The notes beneath the pieces are model-generated. The model saw only the letters and a program-made list of their open reading frames with translations. It ran no database searches and was not told the DNA's origin. Below, in pieces: positions 3,408-55,365 of a stretch of 64,000 nt of DNA. Both the position numbers and the translations under genes were made by a program. Numbering within the stretch: the stretch's first letter is position 1; each line of letters begins with the position of its first letter. This DNA comes from Ischnura elegans. Its lineage: Eukaryota; Arthropoda; Insecta; Odonata; Coenagrionidae. The stretch lies in NCBI RefSeq assembly GCF_921293095.1, contig NC_060248.1, forward strand, positions 131,080,972 through 131,144,971, read 5' to 3'.

Positions 3408-3728
3408 ATCATCTAGATGATTGAATCTATCGAATTCATGCCATACGTTGCGAGTGCAAACACTGTTGTAAACATTGGGAATAAATGAATCGCTCTACGC
3501 TCAAACCCGTGCTGCAAACGTAATTGAAAACCGATTCAAAAGTGAACAAGGTGACAGCGATAATCTCGCTTATATACGGAAGGAAATCTTCTCCATTGAG
3601 TTTGCTAGGACTGGCAGGGAGCCATGTGAACTCCAGGGCCAAGTGTGCACCATGATGCCATGAGATTATAACAGACATTGTTTTTGAAATAAAAATTGAC
3701 CGAGGTTTCTTGGACGAATATCTATAAC
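3408..3728. other. Unannotated stretch
   Basis: Opposed short open frames at 3436-3678 and 3475-3663 have no recognisable domain. Nothing else seen. Confidence 0.4.
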
Positions 3729-3890
3729 CTATACCACTTCTTTTTTTAAAGATAGCATCTTGGGCTTCGATGATTAATCTTTATCGTCAGGCGTAAATTA
3801 TTAACTAAATTCAAAGAACTTACACATGATGACCATTATCATTAATCATTGAAAACCGGGTCGCTTTTTTCAAAACAGAAGTGGTATTAG
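3729..3890. mobile_element. Small MITE-like inverted-repeat element
   Basis: The ends TACCACTTCTTTTTT and AAAACAGAAGTGGTA form terminal inverted repeats of about 18 bp around a non-coding core. A single similar end (TACCACTTCTTTTTT) occurs near 49273. No clear target duplication. Confidence 0.5.
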
Positions 3891-6618: not shown

Positions 6619-7285
6619 AATAGGGTAGTTTCCTTCATCAAAGAAAACGAAATGCATTGATTGCGATTCGTTACCCACCATTAGTGTATTCATAGTATAC
6701 AAATTATTTGGTTTTAGAAATCCCAGTTTAGACGAATGGCAATGGCCAATTTTAACCTCATTCGAAAAAAGCAAGTTTGGCGCCCATGTGATTCCACTCC
6801 ACGTGACGTCACAGGGACCTAGTTTCTATACGAGTAGATATAAGTTTTACATTGTTTGAGATTACCAATGCATGCATGAGGCACAGAGCTCAGGGAAACA
6901 TCTCTTAATAATCACACATTAAAAATACCTAAGTTCGGAAAGTTTTCCTTCGTTTGATAGGGGAATAATAATCCTTATTTAAGCCAAGCGCTACCTGCTA
7001 GCAGGATACTCAGCTACCTGCTAGCAGCCTGCGTCGTATCAGCGCTCAAGCCTCGCCCCAAGGTCACCTCGCACGCCTACAGCTGGAACCAGAAGTACGT
7101 CACACGGACTTTTCCCATCATTCCTACTTAGCCGTCGCGTTTTCGCGCGCTTGAAAGTTTTCGCTTCTCGTTTAATCGCGAAAAATAGATATCGTCATTT
7201 AAAAATCTGAAAGCGTGAAATGCGCACTACAGGAGTAATAACCTTTCGATTTAGGCAATAAAAATTAGTAGGAAACCACCCTATT
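6619..7285 (-). mobile_element. 670-bp inverted-repeat element, copy 1
   Basis: Bounded by AATAGGGTAGTTTCC and its near reverse complement GGAAACCACCCTATT. Three further copies at 10764, 25537 and 32822 are in the opposite orientation. The interior, conserved in all four, contains a CTGCTAGCAGGTAGC block, a CGCGCGAAAACGCGACGG block and a CACGTGACGTCA box. There is no transposase frame, so it is a non-autonomous DNA transposon of unassigned superfamily. Confidence 0.88.
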
Positions 7286-10763: not shown

Positions 10764-11439
10764 AATGGGGTGGTTTCCTATTATTTTTTCATTACCTAAA
10801 TCGAAAGATTATTACTCCTGGAGTACGTATTTCACGCTTTTAGATTTTTAATGACGATATCTATTTTTGGCGATTAAATGAAAACTGAAAATTTTCAAGA
10901 GCGCGAAAACGCGACGGCTAAGTATGAATCATGGGAAAAGCCCGCGTGACGTCATTCTGGTTCCCACTATTGCCGTGTGAGGTGACCTTGGGGCGAGGTT
11001 TTGAGCGCTGATACGATGCAGGCTGCTGGCAGGTAGCAGAGTACCCTGCTAGCAGGTAGCGCTTGGATTAAATAAGGATGATTAATACCTGTTAATACCC
11101 TATCAAACGAAGTAAACTTTCCAATCTTAGGCAGTTTTAATAAGTGATTATTAAGACATGTTTCCCTGAGCTCTGTGCCTCATGCATGCGTTGGTAATCT
11201 CAGACGATGTAAAACTCCTATCTACTCGTATAGATACTAGGTCCCTGTGACGTCACGTGGAATGGCATCGCATGGGCGCCAATCTGGCTTTTTTTAAATG
11301 CGGTTAAAATTGACATTCGTCTAAACTGGGATTTCTAAAACCAAATAATTTGTAAATTATGAATACACTAATGTTGAGTAACGAATCTCTATCAATTTCT
11401 TTGCCTTTTGTTTTCTTTGATGAAGGAAACTACCCTATT
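10764..11439 (+). mobile_element. 670-bp inverted-repeat element, copy 2
   Basis: Starts AATGGGGTGGTTTCC and ends GGAAACTACCCTATT. Contains the same interior landmarks as copy 1: GAAAGATTATTACTCCTGGA, the ACGCGACGG block, GCTAGCAGGTAGC and TGACGTCACGTG at about 11250. Non-coding. Confidence 0.9.
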
Positions 11440-25536: not shown

Positions 25537-26205
25537 AATAGGGTGGTTTCCTATTATATTTTTATTGCTTAAATCGAAAGATTATTACTCCTGGAGTACG
25601 CATTTCAGGCTCTTAGATTTTCGAATGACGATATCTATTTTTCGCGATTAAACGAAAAGTGAAAATTTTCAAGCGCGCGAAAACGCGACGGCTAAGTATG
25701 AATGCTGGGAAAACCCCGTGTGACGTGGTTTCTGGTTCTCGATGCCGCAAATTGAGGTTACCTTGGGGCTAGGATATGTGCGCCGCTGAGATTTAGGCTG
25801 CTAGCAGGTAGCAGAGTACCCTGCAAGAAGGTAGCGCTTGGCTTTAATAAGGATTATTAATACCTTATCAAACGAAGGAATCTTTCCGACCATAAGCAGT
25901 TTTAATAGGTGATTATTAAGAGATGTTCCCCTGAAGTCTGTGCCTCATGCATGCATCGGTAATCTCAGACGATGTAAAACTCCTATCTACTCGTGTAGAA
26001 ACTAAGTCCCTGTGACGTCACGTGGAGTGGATTCGCATGGGCGCCAATCTGGCCTTTTTCAAATGTGGTTAAAATTGACCATTAGCATTTGTCTAAACTG
26101 GGATCTCTAAAACCAAATAATTTGTATATTATGAACACACTAATGGTGGGTAAGCATTCGCAATCAATGTATTTCTTTTCATTTGATGAAGGAAACTACC
26201 CTATT
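25537..26205 (+). mobile_element. 670-bp inverted-repeat element, copy 3
   Basis: Bounded by AATAGGGTGGTTTCC and GGAAACTACCCTATT with the same interior landmarks as copies 1, 2 and 4, including TGACGTCACGTGGA near 26015. Non-coding. Confidence 0.92.
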
Positions 26206-30599: not shown

Positions 30600-30740
30600 T
30601 TAGGGCGCACATTTCATGCTGCATGCTGGTGATAACGTACCCCTTTTCTGTTTTATGTAAAAGCTTGGTGTCCTAACACTCCCCACCACACGCACGTTGA
30701 GGCGGCTTGCGGTGCATTATGTAGATGTAGAGAGATTAGA
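30600..30740 (+). mobile_element. LINE 3' end (family A), plus strand
   Basis: Contains CATGCTGCATGCTGG, the CCACCACACGCACGTTGAGG block and GGCTTGCGG, ending in ATTATGTAGATGTAGAG. The reverse complement of the block is seen at 7780 and 48240. Only the 3' end is retained. Confidence 0.65.
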
Positions 30741-30819
30741 TTTTCTTTTTGCTCTTATCTTGACCTTATTTAATTAATGATAAAATAACTCCTGGAGTAT
30801 AGGTCATATATAATGCAAC

Positions 30820-30848
30820 GTTTCGGTTTATTTTAAAACCTTCATCAG
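30820..30848 (-). ncRNA. Candidate hammerhead ribozyme core
   Basis: The minus strand reads CTGATGA, a stem-loop (GGTTT paired with AAACC), then GAAAC. Both conserved hammerhead core strands are exact. The third core element (the cleavage triplet) and stems I and III were not resolved by eye, so activity is unproven. Confidence 0.5.
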
Positions 30849-31111
30849 GGCTATGAATGAAAAAATTAGAGTACAATAAAATAAAATGATATACAATATT
30901 GATACATAAATAAAGGTTACAAAAGAGTTTTTTACAATAATAAAATTAAAATAATATGTGCAAAACTAAGGTATGTCAAAGTTCTTGTGTATTCCCTTCT
31001 CATTTATTTTTTAAAATTATATTATTGTAAAAAAACTCTTATGCTACCTTTATTTATGTATCAATATTGTATATCACGGAATTTTATTGTATAATTTTTT
31101 CATTCATTGCC

Positions 31112-31139
31112 CTGAGGAAGGTTTCAAATAAACTGAAAC
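31112..31139 (+). ncRNA. Candidate hammerhead ribozyme core
   Basis: CTGAGGA is followed by a short stem-loop (GGTTT and AAACT) and GAAAC. It is the right-arm counterpart of 30820-30848 and differs by several substitutions. A TATA-like TGTATAATT lies about 25 bp upstream. Confidence 0.48.
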
Positions 31140-31200
31140 GTTTGCTAACAACTTTTTTGCATCATATGCATTTGATCTATACTCTAAGAATTATTTAATC

Positions 31201-32815
31201 ATTGATGTAGACGACATAATCGAAGTCTTCCCACTTCGCTGGTTACCCTTCCCCGGCTGAGTCTATAAGTCGTGTAAAGTTTTGAAAACTACGTCCTCGG
31301 GATGGGAAGGATTTTTGATAGGATTAAGGGAAAGGGGGGTGGGACACCCATATTCACCCCCTCCCTACGTTCAGTGCGGAAATTTCACCAGTATGTTTGA
31401 AATGGGTGCCTCTTCTTTTCATTCAGTAATTTCTTTTACTGACAACGGACTCGAATTATTCAGACTGTATGGAGTTACCCTCCAGAGGCCGAGTCTGCAT
31501 GTTGACAGACCTTTTCTCATACGTCCTCAGAGGGGATCTATTTCAAACCAACGCTTCACGGGCGTATTGTTCGGGACCGTATGAAGCAGGCGTTGCTCTT
31601 CATACAGGCCTCCTATACAAAATCCGTCTCTTTCGAATTCAAATGGTTGGATATCCTCCGGAATTTCCCTCCGTTGTGGAACCCGCGCCACTGATAAACT
31701 TATCATGAATACGGAAGAGAAACAAGAAATGTAGTCACTAGGCAAAAAATGGAGACCTTAAATTATTAGGAAGGCCATTATGTAGTGTGGAAATCCATTT
31801 GCTGAGATGTAGATGAAGTTCGGTCACTACCGACATTTGGATTTCAACCGGATCTCACCAGAATGGTCTAGATCACTGTCTCAATCCCCAAATATATATT
31901 TTTTGTGGTTCTAAGTGCTTACCGGTGTAGTGATGGATATATGTCGGTCAAAATGGATTAGTCGAGCAATCGATTTTTGATGTAAATGAACAGCTGAGAT
32001 TTTCATCAAAAATCGAAATCTGAACCATTAGATAGATTAAACGAAAAATCGACAGTTCGCTTTTGAAAAAAATAAAGTATGGAAAAAATACGATGCGTTT
32101 TATTATTAATTCGAAAAACACTAAAAACGCACACTTGAGTAGTAAAAAAAATCCCAGAAAATCTGCTTCGAATGCATGCTTGAATTTTTAGCAGAAAATC
32201 ATAACAATACACGCTCATTAAAGTTTGGGAATCGCCGCTTTGAACCATTCTGATTCACTAAAATTTTACAGGAAACTTCAAATAGTAGAATTGCTTTCTT
32301 GATGATCGAGGGTGTGATTTTTCAGTCTTACGGATCTTAGAGAAATGATGCGAGGTGGATGTGCAAGCTTGCGCGATTGTTTGCTTCATAGTGTTTCAAC
32401 TTAATTTTGGGTATCAGCCAACTGCCATCCTTCTAACTTCCCACCTTTTTACCGAGCGAAGAGTACGGCCTTGGGGAATTTATTTTTTTTCAATCAAGGT
32501 ATAATTAGGGGTATTAACCAAAATGTATGAATATGATGATGTGATCTATCAAATTCATTAGTTTTCAATGCTATTCCTTGCGATGAAAAACATTAAACGG
32601 CAAAATATTGGAAAAATGTGGATCGCATTGCACTCATTACCGCGCTGCGGACATTTTTGAAAACCGATAAAAATTCGACTCAAGTGGCAACAGAAATCAG
32701 CCTTTGATGGCATGGATTCGGGCCTCCTCTATGCAGTCCCCTTGACTAAAAATATTGATCTTTTTACTCCAATAAAGGAGATATCACGGGCTGAAAAAAT
32801 CACCTGGATAGACTA
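31201..32815. other. Unannotated stretch
   Basis: Frames at 31282-31745 overlap on both strands with no domain. A GAGATGTAGATGAAG word at about 31806 resembles the LINE tail. The rest is AT-rich and featureless. Confidence 0.4.
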
Positions 32816-32821
32816 GTATGG

Positions 32822-33493
32822 AATAGGGTGATTTCCTATTATTTTTTTATTACCTAAATCGGAAGATTATTATTACTCCTGCAGTACGCATTTCACGCTC
32901 TTAGATTTTTTAATGTCGATACATATTTTTCGCGATTAAATGAAAACTGAAAATTTTCAAGCGCGCGAAAACGCGACGGCTAAGTATGAATGCCGGGAAA
33001 TCTCCGTGCGACGTCGTTCTGGTTCCCGCTGCCGCAAGTGAGGTGACCTTGGGGCGAGGCTTTGAGCGCTGATACGATGCATGCTGCTAGCAGGTAGCAG
33101 AGTACCCTGTTAGCTGGTAGCGCTTGGCTTAATTAAGGATTATTAATACCCTATCAAACGAAGGAAACTTTCCGACCTTTGGCAGTTTTAATAGGTGATT
33201 ATTAAGAAACGTTTCCCTGAGCTCTGTGCCCCATGCATGCATTGGTATTCTCAGACGATGTAAAACTCCTATCTACTCGTATAGAAACTAGGTCCCTGTG
33301 ACGTCACGTGGAGTGGCATCGCACGGGCGCCAATCCGGTCTTTTTCAAATGCGGTTAGAAATTGACCATTGCCATTCGTCGTTAACTGGGATTTCTAAAA
33401 CCAAATAATTTGTATATTATGAATACACTAATGGTGAGTAACTAATCGCAATCAATGCCTTTCGTTTTATTTGTTTAAGGAAACTACCCTATT
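32822..33493 (+). mobile_element. 670-bp inverted-repeat element, copy 4
   Basis: Bounded by AATAGGGTGATTTCC and GGAAACTACCCTATT with the full set of family landmarks, including TGACGTCACGTGGAGTGG at about 33298. Non-coding. Confidence 0.92.
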
Positions 33494-34893: not shown

Positions 34894-34921
34894 ATATATA
34901 TATATATATATATATATATAC
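34894..34921. repeat. TA dinucleotide microsatellite
   Basis: About 13-14 uninterrupted TA units. Confidence 0.95.
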
Positions 34922-35030
34922 ACTTCGAAATGTTCCTCGGCGAGGTAAATATCATTAAAAAAAACCCTAGGATGGGCAGTAACAGAACACACAATAAAGA
35001 ATAGAAACTCAAACTCACTAAATAACTAAA

Positions 35031-35058
35031 TTTTCGGTGGCATTACCACCTTCCTCGG
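35031..35058 (-). ncRNA. Hammerhead-like motif downstream of the PLE coding frame
   Basis: The minus strand reads CCGAGGA, a perfect hairpin (GGTGG, loop, CCACC) and GAAAA. It lies about 115 bp past the stop codon of the PLE frame at 35172-35999, across a pyrimidine-rich leader. One core base (CTGAGGA to CCGAGGA) and the last base of GAAAC differ from consensus, so it is probably inactive. It ties the motif class in this window to a PLE. Confidence 0.42.
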
Positions 35059-35171
35059 AGTTAGGTAGAAGACTGTAGGTAGAGGGTAAAGGATAGCTGA
35101 GGGAAGGGGAAATAGAGGGGAGGTAGGGTCCAAAGAGGGGGGGAAAGAAGTGGGTTGAGGCAATTAAGGGA

Positions 35172-35999
35172 TTAGCGGTGGATGTTTAAGCCGGGAGGAA
35201 GAAATGCTTTGAATAGCCAAATGTAACTTAATTCAATAGAATTAAGTTTGAGTGGGTGGTCTGTGGGGGGAAGGGAGGCTAAAACTGAAACATTGTAGCA
35301 ATCATTGAAATGACGCTGATGAGCGGCCGCATGTTTCGCCACCGGGAAGGATGCAAAGTCAGAGGAAGAGCAAGATGCTCTGTGGTTATTGATTCTAAGG
35401 TTAAGGGGAGTTGATGATTTGCCTATATAAAAGGAGGGACAGTGCTTGCATTGAATAAGGTAAACTACATTTTTTGAAGTACAGGAGGCCGCAGGAGGTG
35501 GTGGTAGGTAGGAGACGAGATGACTGGGGATAGAAGGAGGGGTAAAAATTGGGCAGGTCTTACATCTAGGACGACCGCAGGGCGAAGGTGTGCTGATGGG
35601 AGTAGTGGGTGACTTCTGTAAGGGGTTAGTTGAGCGGAATAAATTTAAAAGGTTTGCAGGTCGTCTGAATGTGACAATAGGGGGTTTGGCAAAAAGATTG
35701 GCTGTCGCCTTGTTGTTTTTTAGAATAGGGAAGAGGTCTTTAAGGATAGATTGCAGGGATTGTATTCCAGGAAAGTAAGTGGTGCAGAGGGAAAGGTCTC
35801 GTGGTTTGATTCTATTGCACGGTTCTGGGGGGCATTTGTGTTTGAGAATTTTTTTACGTAGGAGGGACTCTGGGTAGCCTCTCTGGAGGAGGGAACGGTG
35901 AAGGTTGTGAAGAAAATTATTTAAGGCATCAGGATTATTACAGATACGGTGGCCTCGAATGGAAAGGGAATAGGGAAGGGAGCGTTTAGGACAAGGACA
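35172..35999 (-). CDS. Penelope-like retroelement, C-terminal part with GIY-YIG endonuclease
   Basis: An uninterrupted 275-codon frame, open at its upstream end and without a start, is read from 35999 down to a TAA at 35172-35174. Near its beginning is KRSLPYSLSIRGHRIC, then LLQRGYPESLLRKKI, a conserved region at the end of the PLE reverse transcriptase. A cysteine cluster CGRPRCKTC follows at about residue 145. The GIY-YIG nuclease comes next: VVYLIQCKHCPSFYIG, the arginine helix LNLRINNHR, a glutamate in NSIELSYIW and the terminal GLN motif. PLE proteins join a reverse transcriptase to this nuclease to prime insertion. Here the frame is cut at its 5' side near 35990, where it abuts an inverted piece of the neighbouring repeat, so the reverse transcriptase core is missing. 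The absence of stops over 828 bp suggests a young insertion. Confidence 0.88.
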   Translation of the reverse strand, partial: CPCPKRSLPYSLSIRGHRICNNPDALNNFLHNLHRSLLQRGYPESLLRKKILKHKCPPEPCNRIKPRDLSLCTTYFPGIQSLQSILKDLFPILKNNKATANLFAKPPIVTFRRPANLLNLFRSTNPLQKSPTTPISTPSPCGRPRCKTCPIFTPPSIPSHLVSYLPPPPAASCTSKNVVYLIQCKHCPSFYIGKSSTPLNLRINNHRASCSSSDFASFPVAKHAAAHQRHFNDCYNVSVLASLPPTDHPLKLNSIELSYIWLFKAFLPPGLNIHR

Positions 36000-36038
36000 A
36001 CGGTGCTGTGGTAGATGGAAAAAAGCCAGAAATCAGAG
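35990..36038 (-). repeat. Inverted 48-bp copy of the neighbouring repeat at the PLE truncation point
   Basis: On the minus strand this starts CTCTGATTTCTGGC and runs to TTGTCCTTGTCC. That is the same as plus-strand 36473-36521. It is joined directly to the PLE frame. The junction probably records the 5' end of the PLE insertion. Confidence 0.8.
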
Positions 36039-36043
36039 TTTAC

Positions 36044-36153
36044 CCGTTGTCCTTGTCCTTTTTCTATTCCATGTTCCTTTCCCTTTCTTTCCTTACCTGT
36101 GAATTTATATGCATATTTGCGCTTAAGGCGTCGTGTGAATGAATGAAGTAGTG
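36044..36153 (+). repeat. 110-bp direct repeat, left copy
   Basis: Runs from CCGTTGTCCTTGTCC to GAATGAATGAAGTAGT and is essentially identical to 36508-36617, 464 bp downstream. Confidence 0.93.
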
Positions 36154-36389
36154 TATCGGCCATATTGGCTTATTTCACTTGGGCTCAGCGTGCCCCGAAA
36201 CGCATGTTCCTGTCTCTTTCCTGCTATCGTGTGAGTGTGTATCTTTCCTTTCATCCTTGTGTCCTCGTCCATTCCTTCTGCTGGTGAGTGGTGAGCTGCC
36301 CCAGTGCCATCTATTGGTTACTCTTGTGGGCCAAAGCAAAGGGAGTTTACTGTATATAAACCCCCGCCGAAATCATGGTAAATCTAAGC

Positions 36390-36462
36390 GTCCTGGTAGC
36401 GCAACTGGTAGAGCACCTGGCCGGCAACCAGGAGGTTCTGGGTTCGAGTCCCAGTCAGGCCG
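36390..36462 (+). tRNA. tRNA-like sequence with intact pol III boxes; probable SINE head
   Basis: All 73 positions fit a tRNA layout. The acceptor stem pairs at six of seven positions, and the D stem has one mismatch. The anticodon stem CCTGG/CCAGG and T stem CTGGG/CCCAG are perfect. Box A (TAGCGCAACTGG) and box B (GGTTCGAGTCC) are good, and a T5 terminator follows at 36465-36469. The anticodon loop CCGGCAA has C instead of the universal U at position 33 and would give anticodon GGC, unusual for a eukaryotic alanine tRNA. It is therefore more likely a SINE or a pseudo-tRNA than a working tRNA gene. It sits between two 110-bp direct repeats. Confidence 0.5.
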
Positions 36463-36507
36463 CATTTTTACCCTCTGATTTCTGGCTTTTTTCCATCTAC
36501 CACAGCA

Positions 36508-36617
36508 CCGTTGTCCTTGTCCTTTTTCTATTCCATGTTCCTTTCCCTTTCTTTCCTTACCTGTGAATTTATATGCATATTTGCGCTTAAGGCGTCGTGT
36601 GAATGAATGAAGTAGTA
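36508..36617 (+). repeat. 110-bp direct repeat, right copy
   Basis: Partner of 36044-36153. It is followed by a short TA microsatellite (36615-36637). The pair encloses the tRNA-like unit and a TATATAA box at about 36354. Confidence 0.93.
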
Positions 36618-36639
36618 TATATATATATATATATATTTA

Positions 36640-39225
36640 TACATTAACTTCTCCCACCTGCTCTTCGACCTCCAACCTTCCCGGACGCACTTTACGCATT
36701 ACAATGTAGTCATAGTTATTAATTAGCTGAGCTTAGGAAATTTGTCCAATCGGCGGTAGTAAAAAAATGTCGCGTCTGTTCCTTCTAATTCCACACTACC
36801 ATTATTCTCAACCAACGTAAGGTGACCTCAGAACCAGCGTCCGTTCACACTTACCAAGGTTAGACACTGGCGGCATCTGATGAGTGGTAAAGTTAGTGCA
36901 AGTGAAAAATGAATCTACAAGAGCGAATAACCTGTTGGTAGGGAATAGAGAATGTGCAGGGAAAAGTTCTTGTGTTAATTGCAATGATTTTCAACGTATG
37001 TGCACATTATGAGCTGCTAATGAGTTAAAAATTGCATTCCAGCATCGTTAAGCATTGTTCATTGCTACGTAGAAGGTAATTCAAATGTGCTTGTCCAACT
37101 AATCATTTCATTGAGGGTGGCTTGCATTTTTCTACTGCTCTATTTAATACGAATTAAAGCGACTATTAGTGATAATTGGGTTGATATCAACAGCATATAC
37201 TACTACTTGCCCTTGATTCGGAAGTGTTGACAAATCATTGATGTAGGTGAAGAAAATCGAGGACCTAATCTTGAGACTTGAGCCTCAATTTGAGGCACAC
37301 CTGTGGTGATTTGGGATGGAGATACACTTTTTGCTGCATTAAAGTCTTTGCAATTATTGTTTTCTGATTTTGACAAAGAACATGATTCAATCTGAAGCTA
37401 TACAGTAAATTAAAACTATTTTACTTCAATTAAATGGGGGACGAATAACTTGCAGAAATGTGACTGGATTGTTGAAATTAAACTTATGAAATTAAACTTA
37501 TGAAATAAGAGAGAGAACATGGTATTTTTTGTGATATTCAGTATCACTCGACCTTTCTTACTTTATATTCTATAGTTATATCTAACTAGCCGTTAACCTG
37601 ATATTTTATATTGATATGGGAAGAACTTTTGCTCAAGGAAGTGATCATAAGTGATCTTTTTCAAACTGGGGCAAAGAACTCTTATAAAAACACTTAATAA
37701 CACTTATAATTGTGACCTTCGGATTTTTATTAAGGTAGTTTCGCACATTTTACATAATTCTAGCAAAATATTTATAGATTATTCAATCTGTCCGTAACAA
37801 TACAATGCGAGCTAATGGCTAATTCACTACGAACTATACAGAATATCGCATAACTTAAATCAGGTTTAAAATCTCATAATATGCAACAAACTACGGAATT
37901 AATCTATAACACTTTCCTTAGAATTAATACTGGCGAATATAATTCAACAATAACGGCCGTCTCCTCTTCGAATGCTTTACTTTCTGTTTTCTTTCCTCCT
38001 ATCCCACTTCGTTGCTGCTTCGCCTTCTTCTTTTTCTAACCAGCTTTTAACCAACTTGCGTTCACACACGCATAAACTACCGCCAACCATTGTCGGAAAA
38101 CGGTGGTCATAATCGCAACTACGGTTAACGGTAACTTGCGTGCACACCTCGTTTTGTAACCATGGTCAGGGCTAACCGGCGTAAAAAGAACGTAGTGTGA
38201 ACGGGGCATTAGTCCACGGAAGAATGATTGATGATGGTCGAGTGAGCGTTAATATTTTTCTATCAACGCCCCAAATCTTAGGCTACCATCTGAAGTTACC
38301 ACGGAATCGTTAATCGACATATCTAATCGTCGCAAGTAATGTCAAAGAAAAATTATTAACATCATCACTCGTGTTCATATACGGTATTAGTCCAATTAAA
38401 GTCCTTTAACACCCATTAATGTTTGGAATGCACCAATAAAGCGTCATCAGGAAAATGAGGTTGTCTAAACTATAATTACCTGTATACTCTTTTTCCAGTT
38501 TCTATTAAATCTGGTATTCGTTAGTATATTAAATTTTGTTTTTCTTTCGTTGGAGCAGAGAAATTAGTCAGGGGGGAAATATTAATATCCTTGACCTGAA
38601 TCTAAACTAGAATCTCCGAAAACAGCGTTGAGCGTCATTAAGAGTTGGTCTAAATTAACATCCTTCTTATCAAATAGTGTCAAGTCATGGCGGAAGATAT
38701 TTCTTCTTTGGAATTTTTTCCTTTTTCTCACTTTCAAGAGATGTCATCCAGCTTTATCTCTTCCTACATTGTCTCTGAAAATTCCTCGGAAGTTTGCGTC
38801 AGGCTAGATTGATTTTTGTTTTACAAATCTCAATGTTAACATTGTTTTATATAGAAGCTGTGTTGTCATTTAACAATTGAATGTCGTTTTCATGCTGTAC
38901 ACGCTGGCTCATAAAGGTCTCTTATGGTGATTTCTAGAAATATTATGCTAATTTTTTAAAGTTTTTTATTACTATTATTTTTATTCAAATTGCTTTAAGT
39001 GTCGGAGAATTCATCCAAACATGAAGTTATAATTATAATGAACCCATAAATCTTAGGTTATAACAAAGTCTTAGGTAATTAATTATCCCTATTAAAATTT
39101 TATCGATTTTTTCAATCAACTATAAGATGTAGGCGTTGTACCCTCATGTAATATTTTATATTTAGCCCTGAATATTGAAATCATTAAATTCCGAAACCCT
39201 TGCAAAATAAGATTATTTAATCATC
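36640..39225. other. AT-rich unannotated stretch
   Basis: No gene recognised over 2.5 kb. Inverted GTTCACACT words near 36850 and 38195 might mark a decayed element, but the ends do not extend. Confidence 0.35.
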
Positions 39226-54994: not shown

Positions 54995-55365
54995 TTGAAA
55001 TAAATAAAATATCGTAGCACTTTTCCACAAGTCTTCTCAACCCCCCCCCCCCCCCCCTCCCGTTTTTCTGTGGTTCCTCCCACGTGTCGTTCATTTACAG
55101 TTATGACTGAAGTCCTCCTTCCAACGTGGGTTCCCCACATCCCTTAGTTGTATCTTTTCTCACCGTCTCCACTCTGTACGCCTGTTCCCAACCCCTTTTT
55201 CAAACCTGTCAAATCCTCCCCAGCCCCCTTTCTCAAGGGTATAAAGGTGATTTTCAAATGTTTTACAGTGTCTTGCACCAGATGATGGCTCAGTGAGCCG
55301 AAACGCGTTGTATGCAGTCAAAAATTTGTGGAAAAGTGCTACGATCTTTATTTATTTAAATATTA
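54995..55365 (+). mobile_element. Penelope-like terminal region with flanking inverted repeat
   Basis: About 34 bp at 54995-55031 (AAATAAATAAAATATCGTAG then CACTTTTCCACAA) recurs in reverse complement at 55327-55365. Between them are a 17-base C run (55041-55057), a pyrimidine-rich leader, TATAAAG at 55240 and a hammerhead-like motif at 55279-55304. The same order of pyrimidine-rich tract, TATA box and motif is present at 59840-59985. Confidence 0.6.
55279..55304 (+). ncRNA. Candidate hammerhead ribozyme core
   Basis: CAGATGA is followed by a strong hairpin (TGGCTCA paired with TGAGCC) and GAAAC. The first core strand has A for T at its second position (CTGATGA expected). A TATAAAG box lies 38 bp upstream. 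Confidence 0.45.

Follow-up and report, generated by a model that had tools for sequence, protein, structure and literature searches.

A probable relic of a Penelope-like element with head-to-head pseudo-LTRs and decayed hammerhead motifs in Ischnura elegans

Identity and anatomy of the inverted repeat

The inverted repeat of about 425 bases analysed here, located in a stretch of 64,000 nucleotides of the Ischnura elegans genome (hereafter the window), is very probably an old and dead insertion of a Penelope-like element (PLE) consisting of pseudo-LTRs (pLTRs) only, two of which are joined head to head with a decayed hammerhead in each. The first-pass annotation of this DNA had described two diverged, outward-facing arms, each with a CTGANGA, hairpin and GAAAC core, and these are confirmed. 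Its attribution of the arms to PLE pLTRs is borne out by the remains of a GIY-YIG domain that relatives carry 5' of the arm, by a one-sided tail, by target duplications and by head-to-head pairing, and the derivation of the motif from a PLE hammerhead by the pairing found across 57 arms and by a complete motif between tandem PLE frames; a PLE origin and a hammerhead origin of the unit are both supported. The inverted arrangement, which had been taken for a known PLE one, likewise agrees with what a report on rotifer elements describes (PMC3846280). The motif can in this way be assigned to a PLE hammerhead that has decayed within an insertion now dead.

The insertion extends from 30735 to 31203. 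Its left arm, a pLTR on the minus strand (30776..30957), has its 5' end at the centre of the unit about 109 nt before the core, and the right arm, a pLTR on the plus strand (30958..31203) that carries no tail, is delimited by arm alignment, tail scores and dissection of the arm ends. The head-to-head breakpoint is best estimated at 30957..30958, where the plus arm reaches to -159 and the minus arm to -109 from the core. A 3' tail of about 41 nt (30735..30775, minus strand) lengthens the left side only, the tail score being 34 on the left versus 5.5 on the right. The word GATGTAGA at 30724..30731, separated from the tail end by the three bases 30732-30734, recurs as an exact 8-bp match at 31204..31211 and is likely to be the target duplication of this copy. 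An apparent 16-bp direct repeat, TTATTTAAT..AATGAT, was also considered as the duplication and dropped, since comparison of copies showed it to arise from the near-palindromic ends of the element.

The two arms are 89.5% identical over 181 ungapped columns (30773-30958 versus 31001-31206), and the folding energy of the unit taken as single-stranded RNA is -174.7 kcal/mol, compared with -66.6 +/- 5.0 in 100 shuffles (z -21). A TATA-like word had been claimed for each arm, and an inner TATATC is indeed common to both, but the outer TATATAT beyond the core is found in the left arm only, the right arm having CATATG there. The left arm carries first-subfamily letters around stem II and in its outer part and the right arm partly second-subfamily letters, a mixture that could reflect two templates or age. 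We observed no coding frame within the unit.

Hammerhead cores of the window arms

In the left arm CTGATGA, stem II and GAAACGTT occupy 30817..30848 on the minus strand, with 2 of 5 stem I pairs present and 1 of them contiguous, and in the right arm CTGAGGA, stem II and GAAACGTT occupy 31112..31142 on the plus strand, with 3 of 5 stem I pairs and none contiguous from the junction. Both were found, at 58.9 and 84.5 bits respectively, by a covariance model (R1) built from the aligned arms of the family, an input of which these two arms are themselves part. The predicted ribozymes are both broken, each in a different way, since the left arm is without 16 nt that include the 3' strand of stem I, and since the right arm holds the stem I strands UUGCC and UGCUA, in which the first pair and one other are broken. 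Of the hammerhead-like motifs originally noted, the CUGANGA...GAAA core is thus present in both arms, but the stem I that would close it at the cleavage site is absent from both.

A descriptor demanding CTGANGA, a stem II of at least 4 pairs and GAAA matched the 64-kb window four times, two of the matches being the arms, against a mean of 0.22 (maximum 2) in 60 simulated windows. With gathering scores as threshold, Rfam 15 matched no hammerhead anywhere in the window, and it matched none in 30700-31280 at E up to 10; the model check that had been proposed accordingly came out negative with Rfam, whose test has low power here. At four motif loci, both window arms included, the stem I energy was no better than with shuffled flanks, and for this reason we make no claim of a ribozyme from the window alone.

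A minimal hammerhead in the family

Arms of the family read TTCATTCATAGCC-CTGATGA-AGGTTTTAAAATAAACC-GAAACGTT-GGCTAACAACTTTTTTGCAT, while a second subfamily differs in that TAGTTTTAAATAAACT links the core to GAAA. UAGCC located 5' of the core pairs with GGCUA located 3' of GAAACGUU to give stem I, GAAACGUU precedes the putative cleavage site, and stem III has shrunk to the self-complementary ACGU. The alignment (A2) comprises 57 arms, two of them those of the window and the other 55 taken from copies; of two identical arms only one was kept (59 to 58), 3 of the 58, which are all the arms of L062, were left out, and L046 and L047 were dropped as duplicates of the loci L041 and L043.

From their letters these 57 arms share a predicted minimal type I hammerhead that is almost without stem III and has a covarying stem II. 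Both stems are paired in 86.8% of 568 cells, as opposed to 14.6-52.3% when the strands are slid by 1 to 3 columns. Cells changed on both sides number 22 versus 2.3 in shuffles (0 of 500 shuffles reach 22), and the covariation score is 0.137 versus 0.098 (0 of 500 as high), where the shuffle test may be inflated by the relatedness of the arms, which the slid control retains. Two out of five covariation measures are weak, namely the number of pairs with a change on both sides (4 versus 1.8, with 23 of 500 shuffles attaining this value, and 6 at a slide of -1) and the number of further pair types (11 versus 9.6, reached by 92 of 500). The compensatory changes are seen in the first pair of stem II (29-48), which is AU in 22 arms, GC in 19, GU in 13, another combination in 2 and a gap in 1; in stem I, 22 of the 57 arms have lost the pair 10-60. 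Exact CUGANGA occurs in 33 arms, GAAA in 49 and at least 3 contiguous stem I pairs in 38, and every hammerhead part is present in 17 of the 57 by a loose test of completeness (core, GAAA, U16.1, H17, a stem I of 3 or more pairs counted from the junction and a stem II of 4 or more). PLE hammerheads of the minimal type I, reportedly described by Cervera and de la Pena in 2014, are said to combine the core letters with a near-absent stem III, as is the case here.

Similar motifs accompany other PLEs. A third R1 match in the window (35023..35063, minus strand, 22.7 bits, E 0.016) holds 10 of 10 model pairs, several of them by other letters, and lies 3' of the frame of a separate, 5'-truncated PLE of another family (35172..36032, minus strand), in which Pfam recognises a GIY-YIG domain (PF01541, E 2.1e-5, 25.2 bits against a cut-off of 22.6) and which is 50% identical to P0001, a sequence carrying PF00078. 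Over 20 PLE loci R1 matched L068 and L074 (25.0 bits, E 0.006, one broken pair) and L081 twice (22.7 bits, E 0.022), with nothing convincing in the remaining 17. Outward-facing hammerhead-like cores 15-28 nt apart stand head to head in L081 (3405-3503) and L082 (3449-3464).

It might be argued that there is no ribozyme at all and that the conserved letters serve protein binding or coding instead. This would agree with the lack of an Rfam match, with an open frame that runs through the motif in one subfamily and with the single-sequence folds of three members, whose minimum-energy structure is not exactly a hammerhead and whose advantage over shuffles is moderate (z -1.5 to -3.3). However, the pairing is specific to its register and maintained by compensatory changes, other PLE loci keep the same pairs with different letters, and the open frame shuts after 5 codons in a tandem PLE array described below, all of which makes this explanation very unlikely. 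The same closed frame in the array also led us to reject the idea that one subfamily is a frameshifted, non-autonomous lineage. As to Rfam, it found no hammerhead in 5 loci, though 4 of these hold an arm that is complete by the loose test, and none in L088, L074 and L081 at E up to 10. Since it is silent even in loci with complete members, its silence says little, and it appears that Rfam models can miss PLE ribozymes that are almost devoid of stem III, so that an absent match is weak evidence.

Copies in the genome

A search for further copies with target duplications had been suggested, and it gave a positive answer. The unit is multi-copy in the 1.72 Gb host genome, a 426-base query yielding 1900 first-look candidates, of which 40 were scored with 89 matches, and one arm alone as query yielding 1795 candidates, of which 40 were scored; 20 copies with flanks and 20 longer stretches were retrieved. 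In each of the 15 resolved copies among the 16 two-armed ones compared (window copy included), one end continues as a tail for about 41 nt beyond ATCATT, with which the pLTR ends, and the other does not, the tail scores being 17-38 at the tailed end versus 4-11 at the other. Target duplications of 8-14 bp, with at most 1 mismatch and a score of at least 8, are present in 12 of 15 copies versus 1 of 210 mismatched flank pairs, the untailed end being fixed at the pLTR end with a slack of a few bases and true and mismatched pairs being treated alike; L039 was excluded from this count, and L030, L033 and L037 are without a convincing duplication. An earlier count with loosely placed ends had put 6 of 15 above the 95% level of the null.

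A large inverted repeat in a small, non-coding and multi-copy unit is also what one would expect of a DNA transposon of the foldback or MITE type, bounded by long terminal inverted repeats. Such an element is nevertheless extremely unlikely here, in view of the tail being one-sided, of the duplications varying in length, of the centre and the arms varying in length too, so that there are no fixed terminal repeats, and of the GIY-YIG frame upstream of the arm in relatives.

Measured from the core, the arms of the 15 dissected copies have an upstream reach of 56 to 213 nt, and the breakpoints differ in all 15, no pair of ends being shared, with ties of up to 7 positions. Single-arm stretches, 17 in number after the near-duplicate L054 was left out, have a common upstream sequence and are truncated at the 5' side at points from 0 to 434 nt upstream of the reference. 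Since the breakpoints differ in the 15 copies and the truncation of single arms varies as well, the inverted pair seems to be made anew at each insertion and not to be inherited or copied as one piece. The sum of the arm lengths is nearly constant (245-296 nt for the 15 copies), which was ascribed to selection by query length, as another query gives spacings of 35-316 nt. That other query, a peptide leading to the second subfamily, gave 1094 candidates, and among its 150 hits all 11 close pairs (at most 2 kb) are head to head with the minus arm on the left and the plus arm on the right, 35 to 316 nt apart, with no neighbours in direct order within 2 kb. L062, which is outside the 150-hit count, has two minus and two plus arms, two of them in direct order about 310 nt apart.

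These observations bear on the proposal of the first-pass annotation that the unit might be a non-autonomous, ribozyme-bearing derivative able to move by itself. Such a derivative would be retrozyme-like, the inverted pair with its ribozymes being what moves. The two-armed copies, the hammerheads of the family and the target duplications would all be in line with such a self-replicating element, but the breakpoints differ in every dissected copy, single-arm relatives end at varying points, both window ribozymes fail and direct pairs within 2 kb are missing among the 150 hits, though L062 has one direct order; we therefore regard it as extremely improbable. Independent movement is also left unsupported by the lack of any frame seen in the unit and by a stem I that cannot pair in either core. 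Because no coding frame was seen, no stem I can pair and the breakpoints differ, the insertions look as if made singly from PLE RNA.

Furthermore, metazoan retrozymes resemble the unit in being small, non-coding and equipped with a type I hammerhead, but differ from it in having canonical hammerheads, tandem repeats and circular RNAs (PMC7229834), whereas the hammerheads here are minimal and the units dispersed and often inverted. Tandem monomers of the retrozyme type with a canonical hammerhead were not encountered, there being 0 direct neighbours within 2 kb among the 150 hits.

Relatives with coding capacity

The coding evidence for PLE parentage consists of the GIY-YIG endonuclease part of relatives. 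By tblastn a GIY-YIG remnant lies upstream of the arm in L048 and L086, in relatives and not in the window unit itself, and L087, whose likeness to L086 is 92% across 523 bp and which holds the endonuclease end without an arm, has an open frame of 147 codons that Pfam recognises (PF01541, 23.7 bits against a cut-off of 22.6). Known GIY-YIG proteins matched 3 of 4 upstream segments by tblastn, the failing one being that of L061, versus none of 200 shuffled ones; the broken piece of L048 gave no Pfam match, and a protein search with the endonuclease end of L087 gave no match. The L087 frame used as query yielded 9181 candidates, of which 150 were scored, including relatives with about 79% endonuclease identity and open frames of up to 852 codons.

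Among the relatives is a tandem array of three PLEs at a spacing of 3003 bp with frames of 573, 573 and 464 codons. Between the array frames (L088), the endonuclease end and its stop give way to a pLTR with about 65% likeness to the arms and then to the motif ACATAGCC-CTGAAGA-TGTTTTTAAAATAAAAC-GAAACGTT-GGCT, which R1 scores at 56.6 bits with no broken pair, and the same hammerhead motif is found 3' of the 852-codon frame in L089. As its pLTR is only about 65% like the arms, the array represents a relative and not the parent. The designation of the parent as Penelope/Poseidon-like is a guess made from endonuclease letters rather than from a tree. Tandem PLE arrays with a spacing of about 3.3 kb and open frames mostly of 953 codons also occur elsewhere in the host genome, at C52:1160-15730 and at C5:3805582-3824808, the latter containing a change of direction.

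Origin of the head-to-head arrangement

Head-to-head PLE pLTRs and PLE hammerheads are already in print (PMC3846280 for the former; PMC11167929 and PMC7229834 for the latter), and a literature search with few of the subscription journals in its coverage returned no account of the present family. In Adineta vaga, Penelope elements likewise have a pLTR beside an inverted pLTR, mostly head to head and with the inverted one shorter, a tail on one inverted pLTR, duplications of 8-10 bp and solo pLTRs, but their copy numbers are very low (PMC3846280), whereas about 1900 first-look candidates and frame-less pairs are found here. The Poseidon element PAc of Anolis carolinensis is comparable in that reverse transcription starts at two adjacent places in relation to the tail, in that both target strands are cleaved and extended and in that targets are A+T-rich, yet the PAc frame begins at stem II (PMC11167929), as opposed to the L088 array, where the likely start codon lies 260 nt 3' of the core. 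Validation of the later insertion steps is left to further work in the same 2024 in vitro study (PMC11167929).

The head-to-head pair could have come about as follows. A PLE protein would nick the target and prime on both strands, reverse transcription would start from two neighbouring places near the 3' end of the pLTR RNA, with one target strand extended from the tail end and its partner from the pLTR end, and the cDNAs of the window copy would halt on the upstream side of the core, at distances of about 109 nt and about 159 nt from it, before their 5' ends were joined. The window copy would then derive from PLE RNA that was reverse-transcribed in trans, presumably through a PLE protein, and the ribozyme of a live element might serve to cut a tandem transcript between the frames. 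We infer the two-strand priming step and consider it, taken by itself, reasonably probable. That the division of labour is fixed, with one strand primed at the tail site, its partner where the pLTR ends, about 41 nt further upstream, and never both at the same site, is a more tentative and on the whole doubtful proposition. The tailed arm is the one shorter at the 5' end in 12 of 14 resolved copies (the window and L026-L038, the exceptions being L031 and L033; binomial p 0.013), a relation noticed post hoc among copies that were picked by their likeness to the window unit, and together with the single tail in 15 of 15 it could be a possible trace of a PLE dimer acting on both strands.

Alternatively, the second arm of a PLE insertion may stem from self-priming of one folded-back cDNA. 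The authors of the rotifer study infer this, with an antisense template, from palindromes at inverted PLE junctions (PMC3846280), and the unequal 5' reach of the arms would fit. By our reasoning, however, the plain fold-back form predicts two tails and a longer tailed arm, as opposed to the single tail of 15 of 15 copies and the shorter tailed arm of 12 of 14, although the form with an antisense template is unaffected by this. A weak further point against self-priming is that the arms of one copy are mostly not nearest to each other, arm identity within a copy being generally not above the level between copies, but all of them are old. Altogether we find self-priming unlikely and prefer priming on both strands. 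The many PLE insertions of this genome in which both ends are readable would permit a test of two-strand priming by PLEs.

Other features of the window and of neighbouring loci

The region of the truncated PLE of the other family (34900-36640) contains on its 5' side a perfect inverted repeat of 51 bp (35988-36038 / 36473-36523) and a 113-bp direct repeat at 99%. A further PLE-like remnant at 55007-55349 is bounded by a 29-nt inverted repeat (55007-55035 / 55321-55349) and has CAGATGA, a hairpin and GAAACGCG at 55279 on the plus strand, a motif that R1 did not report at E up to 10. A scan of viral contigs gave 0 matches, and further such scans gave 17 matches in one and 7 stretches without a relative in another. 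A dispersed repeat of about 670 bp with 84-88% identity occurs at 6619-7285, 10764-11439, 25537-26205 and 32822-33493, one of the copies being inverted.

Genes for tRNA predicted by ARAGORN adjoin PLE frames in the window (36390-36463) and in 4 of 20 loci of the P0001 family, at 3639 and 4102 in L074, at 360 and 1014 in L077 and L079 and at 3766 and 4242 in L081. They are of the type Ala ggc, but Ser gga in L081, and Rfam agrees for the window, L074 and L081. The pairs of L074 and L081 stand in direct order with spacings of 463 and 476 bp respectively, those of L077 and L079 are opposed, and the word TATAAACCCCCGCCGAAA is found 5' of the tRNA genes in the window and in L081. It may be that PLE pLTRs have captured tRNA genes here.
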